Virus record (IMG/VR): IMGVR_UViG_3300028822_000039
Location: 1 to 20,880 of that record
Origin: a virus
DNA length: 20,880 nt
Direction: 5' to 3' (one strand)
The notes below the pieces were generated by a model. That model was not told the DNA's origin. It saw only the letters and a list, made by a program, of their open reading frames with translations, and did no database searches. This document shows, piece after piece, positions 16,689-19,541 of this stretch. Made by a program: the position numbers and the translations under genes. Position 1 is the stretch's first letter, and every line of letters starts with the position of its first letter.

Positions 16689-19202
16689 TCAGATACCTAT
16701 GTCATGGAAGAGGGGCTCATCTTCCTCAATTTCCTCGTATTGTTCGGTAAATGTAGCGTACTTGCGCATCTGATAGCCAATGGCACAGTTGTGTACCAAA
16801 ATATTGTTAGCAAAGTATTCTGGAGAACCCTCAACCTGCAAATTATAAACTGTCTGCACGCTTTCTCCTTCTGTTTTTAAAGCATTTTGTCCCACAATAT
16901 TTTTGGTGGGGTACTCTAGTGAGATACGGTAACCCACACACCTCGCAAGTTTTCTCTTTGAATGGTTTTTTACGATGTTCACCTTGTGACCGATGGGTGC
17001 AACCGCGCGAACAAAAGCGCGCATTGTGGCTGACTGTTTCAAACTGGTCATCACACCATTCACATTTTCTTTTAGAGCGTTCGCGGGTTTTAATGCTTTC
17101 TCGTATACCCTGATTGACCGCTTCTCTATTTTGGACCAAGTTTTGTCGCAATGCCTCTTTTCTTTCAGGTTCCTCCATGTGTAAACGCATGTGTGCTGAA
17201 TGAGAAAGACACTCCAAGTTATCGGGGCGATTATTAAAAGGATTGCCGTCTTTATGATGAACACAATAACCTTTTGGAATAGGTCCATTATGTTTTTCCC
17301 AAATGACCCTATGAAGGTATTTAGCAGACTTTTTATTGGTTGCACCGCCTGAGAAATAAACTCGATGATTCCGGTGTGGTGAGTTGGGGTACCGATAATA
17401 TTTTGTGCCTCGGTATAAGACATATTCTCGATGGCCCTCTTTGATTCGTTCCATACTGTTATGGTATCACCGTGGCGAACTTGTGACAAGTCTTTTATAC
17501 CACCATTAACAAACACTGGATGATCGGGGGTTCCTGTTAGCCCAATATTAGTAATAACTTCTTTGGGGTGAGCAATGTTAGCAGTCACTTGTTTGTAACC
17601 GTTCCGAGTCATAACCTTATCGCCAACCCTAATGGACTCAATAGGACGCTGACCTTTGTTGGTCAAAACCATTGTCCCTTTAACAAAACACGCCATAAAC
17701 AAATCAAAGTGTCGGGTAACCAATCCAACCTTAGTATCAGTCAGGTCAGCTGTGGTGTATGACCGCATCTCCTTCAACACGTTCTTGTCGTATATCTTAA
17801 TCTTCCCGTCATTGTAGTCTTTCCGAAACTCAAACAACATAGCGGGCTTGCTCTTCCTAGTAGTCCGCCACCCAAACGTCTCAGACACACGCAAGGTGCG
17901 ACTACCCTCCTTCCGTTCAGTATATATATTAGGATACCCGCGCATGGTGGCGATAGTAGCGTGCCCGGTGTTGTTGTTCTCAGGCGCGATAATACAGTTA
18001 CCAAACTCACGCCCGACCCGCACCAGCTCGTGGCCAAACAGGTCAGGAGGGATGCGGTTATTAAAGTATGTCCCCACCAGGCGGGCCACATCTCCGTCAA
18101 ACGTACCAAAGTCCCACAACGCAAACGTGTTAGCGTCTTTCCCAATACCCTCACTGGTGTCAGCTCCGATACCATACTTGTGGTGTGGCTGATATGAGTC
18201 CCAGTACTTCACTCCGGCTGACTCAAACGTAGGCTGCTTACACGCATCCAAATCAGCATCTACCCGTGACCGATCAAAGAAGCTAGAGTCAGACCGAGAT
18301 GGGTCAGCCATGTACTCACCCCAGAAATCCTCAGCATCTCCTTGCAAGATGCGGATTTTCTCCTTGTCATAGCGCTCAGGCCAAGTGGGGCTACCGTCTT
18401 CCCTCATAATAGGTATCTTGTCCACCAGGACCGACGGCTTGTTAAAGAACCACTGAATCACCCCCTCCTCCGAGATATAGTTACCGTTACACATCCAAGA
18501 GCCGTCAGCCGACAAACCAGAAATAGCTTCATCAATACGATTGATAGTAGCTTCCGTCTGAGCAAGAGACTGGATAGATTCTCGATCCTCCACGTCGTCA
18601 AATATAATCCAGTCAGGGCGGTACGCATCTTGCAGGTGACCTCGCTGGGTGACACCGATCGTCCCAGCGAGTACCTTGCGCTGGTCAACAGTGGTGAACG
18701 CACCCATAGTCTCCTCACGCTTCTTGTCCCCCTCCCTTACAAAGATGTCTCCGTAAAGCTCCTTCAGTGTAACAATGTTGTTATACACGTCGGTTACTAA
18801 CTGACGCGCGTTACCCATATTCCTTGTCATCACCTTAATGTACTTCCTGGTAAAAGCTCGATCGTTGAGAATGACGAATGTTAAAAAGAGCTTAGTGAGA
18901 CTCGTCTTAGCACAGCCACGAAACCCCAGGTTCAAGTACCGTATCTCCCCGTAATAAGAACGGCGCATGTGTTCGATTATCACCGGATGGAAGTCCGGTA
19001 CTGGCGAAGTAAAGTAGCGGGAGAAAAATAGGTGACAGAACAAGTCGAACTTAAACCGAAACGTCAGTGCGTCGTCAGCATCCGATACCGCCAATAAAGT
19101 TAGTATCTTAGTGCGGTCATTGTCCTTGAGGTGATCCAAGGCAATATCCATCATTTGCTGGTTGTATAAGTGACGGGGAAATTGTGACTGTTCTAGGTCC
19201 AT
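16689..19202 (-). CDS. terL: Large terminase subunit with in-frame intein
   Basis: 837 residues including a 301-residue intein; the spliced protein would be 536 residues, normal for TerL. It packages DNA with an N-terminal ATPase and cuts concatemers with a C-terminal RNase H-like nuclease. Walker A is GFRGCAKTS (93-101) and Walker B is WIIFDDVED (198-206, acidic pair D202-D203, E205). Nuclease acidic residues are D348 (GIGADTSEG), E408 (IIAPENNN) and D500 (RHFDLFMA). The intein starts at C505, four residues after D500, so catalytic motif III is completed only after splicing. The gene ends in UGA, and its ATG lies 6 bases after TGGTACAAT, predicting a leaderless mRNA. It follows a small HNH-like gene by 18 bases and precedes the portal, the usual packaging order. 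Confidence 0.95.
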   Translation of the reverse strand: MDLEQSQFPRHLYNQQMMDIALDHLKDNDRTKILTLLAVSDADDALTFRFKFDLFCHLFFSRYFTSPVPDFHPVIIEHMRRSYYGEIRYLNLGFRGCAKTSLTKLFLTFVILNDRAFTRKYIKVMTRNMGNARQLVTDVYNNIVTLKELYGDIFVREGDKKREETMGAFTTVDQRKVLAGTIGVTQRGHLQDAYRPDWIIFDDVEDRESIQSLAQTEATINRIDEAISGLSADGSWMCNGNYISEEGVIQWFFNKPSVLVDKIPIMREDGSPTWPERYDKEKIRILQGDAEDFWGEYMADPSRSDSSFFDRSRVDADLDACKQPTFESAGVKYWDSYQPHHKYGIGADTSEGIGKDANTFALWDFGTFDGDVARLVGTYFNNRIPPDLFGHELVRVGREFGNCIIAPENNNTGHATIATMRGYPNIYTERKEGSRTLRVSETFGWRTTRKSKPAMLFEFRKDYNDGKIKIYDKNVLKEMRSYTTADLTDTKVGLVTRHFDLFMACFVKGTMVLTNKGQRPIESIRVGDKVMTRNGYKQVTANIAHPKEVITNIGLTGTPDHPVFVNGGIKDLSQVRHGDTITVWNESKRAIENMSYTEAQNIIGTPTHHTGIIEFISQAVQPIKSLLNTFIGSFGKNIMDLFQKVIVFIIKTAILLIIAPITWSVFLIQHTCVYTWRNLKEKRHCDKTWSKIEKRSIRVYEKALKPANALKENVNGVMTSLKQSATMRAFVRAVAPIGHKVNIVKNHSKRKLARCVGYRISLEYPTKNIVGQNALKTEGESVQTVYNLQVEGSPEYFANNILVHNCAIGYQMRKYATFTEQYEEIEEDEPLFHDIGI
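16788..17690 (-). mobile_element. Class 1 intein in TerL (residues 505-805)
   Basis: All splicing elements are visible in the TerL frame. Block A begins C505-FVKGTMVLTNKGQRPIESI, with VGDKV typical of the N-splicing domain. Block B is TGTPDHPVF, with T558 and H561 as the TxxH motif. Blocks F-G are TVYNLQVEGSPEYFANNILV followed by H804-N805, and the next extein residue is C806. Splicing would join MA to CAIGYQ and restore the nuclease motif. The N-domain is about 78 residues and the recognisable C-domain about 20-25. Between them lies a 200-residue linker with no endonuclease motif in this frame, including a hydrophobic run at 645-668. The linker DNA instead encodes an HNH enzyme in another frame. 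Confidence 0.93.
16843..17454 (-). CDS. HNH homing endonuclease nested out of frame inside the intein
   Basis: 203 residues, offset by 2 bases (mod 3) from the TerL frame. The core is KSAKYLHRVIWEKHNGPIP, then VHHKDGNPFNNRPDNL (H66-H67, N75) and SHSAHMRLH (H85/H88), the HNH_3-type fold of phage mobile endonucleases. Two zinc fingers follow, each C-x2-C-x13-C-x3-C: C131/C134/C148/C152 and C170/C173/C187/C191, with a basic tail RRRKRADSL. The ATG lies inside the codons for intein V583-W584, and an in-frame UGA five codons upstream excludes extension. The TAA falls in the codons for TVYN at the start of intein block F. It therefore fits exactly between the splicing blocks. The inferred role is to cut intein-free terL alleles and spread the intein. 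How it is translated is unclear, since no Shine-Dalgarno or strong promoter precedes it. Confidence 0.9.
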   Translation of the reverse strand: MERIKEGHREYVLYRGTKYYRYPNSPHRNHRVYFSGGATNKKSAKYLHRVIWEKHNGPIPKGYCVHHKDGNPFNNRPDNLECLSHSAHMRLHMEEPERKEALRQNLVQNREAVNQGIRESIKTRERSKRKCEWCDDQFETVSHNARFCSRGCTHRSQGEHRKKPFKEKTCEVCGLPYLTRVPHQKYCGTKCFKNRRRKRADSL

Positions 19203-19220: not shown

Positions 19221-19541
19221 TTATGCCCAGGGATTTACAAACTTGCGGGTAATAGTGGTGTGCTCTGGGTTTACACACTGGTCGATACCACAGGTGCCTT
19301 GTACGTAAATCTCTTTCATTTCACGTCGTTCTTGCTTGATTGTGTAATTAAGAGTCTGGGGGTCGTGAATAGCAGCTGATACTTTTTTTACAGGTACGTT
19401 GTTAAAACGCTTCTGGGCGCATATCCAGCATCCTGGGGAGTTTTTCCCAGTGAGCTTGATTACGGGGATGCCGGTAAATTTTGAAAATTCGTTGTCCGCT
19501 GTGCGTTTTACCTTTCTCATTCGTTTAGATGGTACGGGCAT
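19221..19541 (-). CDS. Small HNH-like zinc protein between TerS and TerL
   Basis: 106 residues. The N-terminus is basic (MPVPSKRMRKVKRTADNE). C38-x2-C41 (GCWICAQ) and a C-terminal C84-x4-C89-VNPEH94 (TCGIDQCVNPEH) form the zinc-binding frame of HNH proteins, whose usual pattern is H-x-C-x(n)-C-V-N-P-x-H-L. The first catalytic His expected near residue 82 is not there (VQGTCG), so nuclease activity is doubtful. HNH proteins encoded beside terminases, such as HK97 gp74, are known to assist DNA packaging; a packaging accessory role is inferred here. It has a -35/-10 promoter about 100 bases upstream and ends 18 bases before terL. Confidence 0.55.
   Translation of the reverse strand: MPVPSKRMRKVKRTADNEFSKFTGIPVIKLTGKNSPGCWICAQKRFNNVPVKKVSAAIHDPQTLNYTIKQERREMKEIYVQGTCGIDQCVNPEHTTITRKFVNPWA

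Follow-up and report, generated by a model that had tools for sequence, protein, structure and literature searches.

Large bifunctional inteins carry their endonuclease region in frame, between blocks B and F, and I-HmuI, an HNH homing endonuclease, is a group I intron enzyme. Genes that are fractured and encode split inteins, of the gp41-1 type, were reportedly described by Dassa and colleagues in 2009. A further arrangement is found in phage DNA methylases, in which the ShiLan domain is a hidden HNH insertion that has no intein splicing motifs and for which no splicing was reported (PMC11855218, Genes 2025); a methylase insertion of similar kind has also been noted in a phage (PMC12613952). 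An intein with an out-of-frame endonuclease was not found in our full-text literature search, although preprints and most subscription papers lie outside that search and a prior description is possible.

Here, we analyzed positions 1 to 20,880 of the IMG/VR virus record IMGVR_UViG_3300028822_000039 (20,880 nt; the window), in which the gene for the large terminase (TerL) contains an HNH reading frame nested within an intein. We consider it very probable that this insert is a composite mobile intein whose homing endonuclease is encoded by an overlapping gene and translated separately.

Table 1. Features of the TerL locus in the window (pLDDT values are from AlphaFold2 models)
Feature	Position	Strand	Remarks
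TerL precursor gene	16689..19202	-	Single uninterrupted ORF, 837 aa; 536 aa after predicted splicing
Intein, C1 to terminal HN	16788..17690	-	301 aa; delimited by motifs, intein-free relatives and Hint fold
N-terminal Hint half, blocks A and B	17451..17690	-	pLDDT above 93
TPDH (TxxH motif) in N-terminal Hint half	17520-17531	-	Intein residues 54-57
C-terminal Hint half, blocks F and G, VYNLQVEGSPEYFANNILVHN	16788..16862	-	Last 20 residues with pLDDT of 90 or more
C+1 of C-extein	16785..16787	-	Ala at the same position in intein-free relatives
Nested HNH endonuclease ORF	16843..17454	-	203 aa, offset +2 (-1) relative to TerL; HNH_3 E=1.4e-21; pLDDT 94
HNH_3 catalytic core (HNH residues 45-90)	17185..17322	-	Pfam HNH_3; invariant residues
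Zinc finger 1 (C131, C134, C148, C152)	16999..17064	-	Invariant in HNH relatives
Zinc finger 2 (C170, C173, C187, C191)	16882..16947	-	Cysteines read in window HNH
Weak Shine-Dalgarno-like GGTGAT, upstream of HNH ATG	17466..17471	-	Overlaps UGA 17467-17469

The intein extends from C505 to N805 of the TerL precursor, ending in HN, and is followed by C806 at the +1 position. Its boundaries are fixed because 10 close TerL relatives from IMG/VR (L001-L010; 66-89% identity) have no insert and continue across the site: FDLxxA is followed directly by A(V/T)IGWQM in these intein-free alleles, while in the window FDLFMA precedes the insert and CAIGYQM follows it. The TerL frame matches the Hint_2 (5e-9) and Intein_splicing (9e-7) profiles, and the insert has the Hint fold, C1, TxxH, the penultimate residue with the terminal Asn, and a C/S/T residue at +1. 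A group I or group II intron or another RNA element was rejected, as a search of the window against Rfam families returned no match. Just upstream of TerL, a small ORF on the same strand (19221-19541) has a weak, subthreshold match to zf-His_Me_endon (E=0.015); judged from this match, it could possibly be a second endonuclease adjoining TerL.

The nested ORF encodes the HNH core residues and zinc-binding cysteines of HNH_3 homing endonucleases. Its frame is shut by a UGA 4 codons before the ATG, the candidate Shine-Dalgarno (SD) sequence is weak and distant from the ATG, and its stop codon overlaps the start of the C-terminal Hint half. A preliminary description of this DNA had reported an open TerL frame with every splicing element and an HNH enzyme in another frame; its coordinates and description are correct, as is its view that the design is neither the classical one, given the +2 offset of the HNH frame, nor the fractured one, in which the host gene occupies two ORFs, given the unbroken TerL frame. 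The intein-frame product across the overlap matches PHROG families of unknown function, for example phrog_35162 (TerL residues 638-687), which suggests that out-of-frame shadows of HNH genes may already be catalogued as PHROG protein families.

The same arrangement of intein and nested ORF was found at 155 loci in phage and prophage sequences, each with an intact intein frame and an out-of-frame HNH; the offset is +2 in 149 of them and +1 in 6. These loci, some of which are near-copies of each other, were drawn from 163 loci that have both intein halves, pooled from a scan with an HNH alignment, a search with a DNA pattern for the intein C terminus, and contigs of bacterial and archaeal genomes. 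The count requires a host frame open in one segment, and 8 of the 163 were excluded as split. HNH in frame between intact intein halves was found at none of the 163 two-part loci; the sole locus at offset 0 (L109) is a broken gene. Scanning viral contigs with the single HNH protein recovered only two relatives, and the HNH alignment recovered 80 loci, mostly nested. With the intein C terminus alone, so that HNH was not required, 69 loci were nested and 8 were nested-like at contig edges; the rest were one mini-intein and two uninformative loci, with no in-frame HNH, the pattern being a consensus of this intein family itself and not a sample of all phage inteins. A tblastn search of phage records with the HNH protein gave matches in the TerL-annotated genes of three phages, namely, Tetrasphaera phage TJE1, Acinetobacter phage Highwayman and Rhodobacteraceae phage LS06-2018-MD07. 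Reading of the frames revealed the same nesting in all three, in one fecal phage contig and in a portal gene (L018), and nesting occurs on bacterial or archaeal contigs as well. The nested arrangement is widespread and stable.

When 62 host proteins were scanned, the majority matched terminase families and one matched a DegT aminotransferase; the L018 host is the portal protein. Most of the insertions occur at the TerL motif that ends in DAxRY and is part of the nuclease active site, and others occur at further conserved TerL motifs. At L059 (3150-5255), a nested-HNH intein sits between IEDA and CESFG of a DegT/DnrJ aminotransferase gene. Two host genes contain two inteins: L168 has an in-frame LAGLIDADG intein in addition to the nested-HNH one, and L037 (2271-4457) has a second Hint upstream. 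The six loci at offset +1 (L062, L063, L066, L077, L080 and L097) form one lineage, with no stops where about 15 to 18 are expected, and this lineage apparently arose independently.

To assess chance openness, we held the HNH protein fixed, resampled synonymous codons from each locus and counted host-frame stops. For the window alone, the probability of an open TerL frame was 0.006 to 0.011. Across 106 divergent loci, 489 stops were expected (4.6 per locus) and none was observed; about 2 of the 106 would be expected to be open by chance, which rules chance out. In the corresponding frame of free-standing or fractured HNH relatives, all 14 of 14 contain 1 to 14 stops. The opposite offset carries about 18 expected stops per locus, compared to about 4.6, and these synonymous statistics account for the dominance of offset +2. 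Comparison of 22 independent pairs gave omega values in the overlap of about 0.39 for HNH and about 1.27 for the host frame, both crude counts with no correction for multiple hits. Differences in the overlap fell mostly at third positions of HNH codons (797/625/1458 by codon position), and the intein part upstream of the overlap displayed the usual host-frame pattern (234/199/498). HNH is under purifying selection and the overlapped intein-frame protein is unconstrained; with an omega of about 1.27, the intein frame over the overlap is therefore only a stop-free linker. In the AlphaFold2 model of the window intein, the Hint halves have pLDDT values of 90 to 98 and the middle mostly 42 to 62, except for a helix at 71 to 82, in agreement with a linker that is kept open but not kept as a protein. 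The preliminary claim that the intein frame is maintained thus holds for stop avoidance and fails for the protein itself, and its chance estimate of 6 in 100,000 is too low for this single locus.

The start codons of HNH are conserved (130 ATG, 15 GTG and 8 TTG), and SD matches of at least 5 bases precede 25% of them, compared with 5% for internal start codons (P=6e-10), although a clear SD sequence is absent before HNH in many loci. Separate translation is suggested by the purifying selection, the start codons and the SD enrichment. Programmed -1 frameshifting out of the TerL frame could instead produce HNH as an N-extein/Hint-N/HNH fusion, and a -1 slip does reach the HNH frame in 149 of the 155 loci. 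However, above its start the HNH frame stays open for no more than 4 codons in the median case, which leaves almost no room for a slip; the start codons are conserved and enriched in SD matches, six loci use the other offset, and the offset bias is explained by synonymous statistics alone. We regard frameshifting as improbable.

Decay of the nested gene is seen within the family: L154 has lost the HNH core, L218 is a 147-aa intein retaining one zinc finger, and L186 is a 135-aa mini-intein, all with an open host frame. Erosion of HNH thus leaves the intein frame open. It is conceivable that the window intein spliced until recently and that its HNH is now a decaying passenger in this phage, as HNH is shortened in L037, the closest nested relative, and decays elsewhere in the family; yet the window HNH retains all catalytic and zinc-binding residues and is modeled confidently, making this scenario very unlikely. 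It is still harder to credit that the insert is a ShiLan-type, ordinary nonsplicing insertion whose open frame leaves it in the TerL protein. The methylase genes provide a precedent (PMC11855218), but here complete Hint halves and the Hint fold are present, with C1 in 150, TxxH in 153 and a terminal [H/S/K/A]N followed by C/S in 154 of the 155 loci, and the insertion sites fall within active-site motifs of TerL, so that 300 aa left in the protein should abolish its activity. A dead intein with a chance-open HNH frame, or the paired indel errors that the preliminary description wished to see excluded, could be entertained for one metagenomic virus fragment with a P value of only about 0.01, but recurrence at 155 loci in many separate records and isolate phages, with no stops and with purifying selection, makes either barely believable.

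Fractured relatives belong to the same HNH family. In L025 (Vibrio phage), L109 (Lactobacillus phage CL2), L121, L127, L128, L131 and L133, TerL stops after the N-terminal intein half and is followed by HNH and then by a separate ORF for the C-terminal half and the end of TerL, which has its own SD sequence in several of these loci; L115 (Brochothrix BL3) combines a split intein with an HNH remnant. Free-standing HNH relatives (L107, L108 and L110-L114) adjoin TerL, mostly between the TerL and portal genes, which fits a source beside the gene that the insert targets. Nested, free and fractured forms are interspersed in the HNH tree (13 changes versus a shuffled mean of 21), which gives no direction. 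Distances among Hint, HNH and extein are weakly correlated at large divergence (Spearman 0.14 to 0.23), with nearest neighbors agreeing in 40 to 49% of loci, so that co-inheritance of the three is supported over short times only. An earlier suggestion that HNH had drifted out of frame finds no in-frame relative among the 163 two-part loci. The proposal of an intermediate toward split inteins survives as a link, through the fractured TerL genes, and not as a passing state, the arrangement being widespread and stable.

We favor the composite intein with a separately translated nuclease and propose the following mechanism. Ribosomes translating TerL would continue in frame across the entire insert, and the Hint halves would fold and splice out in cis, as the complete conserved motifs and the Hint fold suggest. 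Internal entry on the same mRNA, at the HNH start codon, would yield a free HNH/zinc-finger nuclease. This enzyme would cut the intein-free terL of coinfecting phages, and repair would copy the entire insert; homing biology and the patchy distribution of the insert point to this step. Where the two frames overlap, HNH is selected as a protein, and the TerL frame is selected only for the absence of stops. A break in the host frame would then split the intein and fracture the gene; loci of this kind exist, and we infer the direction.

These loci offer a concrete route to a fractured gene that has a split intein and a free-standing endonuclease at the break, because the nuclease that remains once the host frame is lost is already independent. 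They also provide, in nature and in large numbers, overlapping genes on the same strand, with a folded enzyme encoded in one frame and nothing but stop avoidance required of the other. Annotation of phage inteins should change, as nested nucleases were missed in TJE1, Highwayman and LS06-2018-MD07, where the host gene is annotated as TerL only and the nuclease has no annotated gene.

Among known systems, I-HmuI (PDB 1u3e) is the nearest solved relative of the window HNH by both sequence profile and fold; the similarity is weak (E=3e-4), and no Rfam family matches the window. As in large bifunctional inteins, Hint halves surround an endonuclease region between blocks B and F, but here the endonuclease lies in another frame, is absent from the precursor and would need separate translation. 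Fractured genes likewise have an endonuclease between intein halves that is translated separately, as it probably is in the window; gp41-1 is the nearest solved intein, and fractured TerL genes fall within the window's HNH family. The window host frame is unbroken, however, and splicing would therefore be in cis. Closest among published cases is the ShiLan domain, in which HNH is out of frame but no intein is present: there, too, the host gene is uninterrupted and a zinc finger HNH occupies another frame within it, with a reported start at base 18 of the insert, equivalent to offset +2, near the beginning of the insert and a stop near its end, whereas full Hint halves flank the window HNH and ShiLan has no splicing domain. 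The loci described here likely represent a widespread class of mobile intein in which the endonuclease is an overlapping gene instead of a domain, translationally uncoupled from the intein and genetically inseparable from it. Relatives on either side link this class to mini-inteins and to fractured genes with split inteins, and the class may therefore be the origin of natural split inteins of phages.
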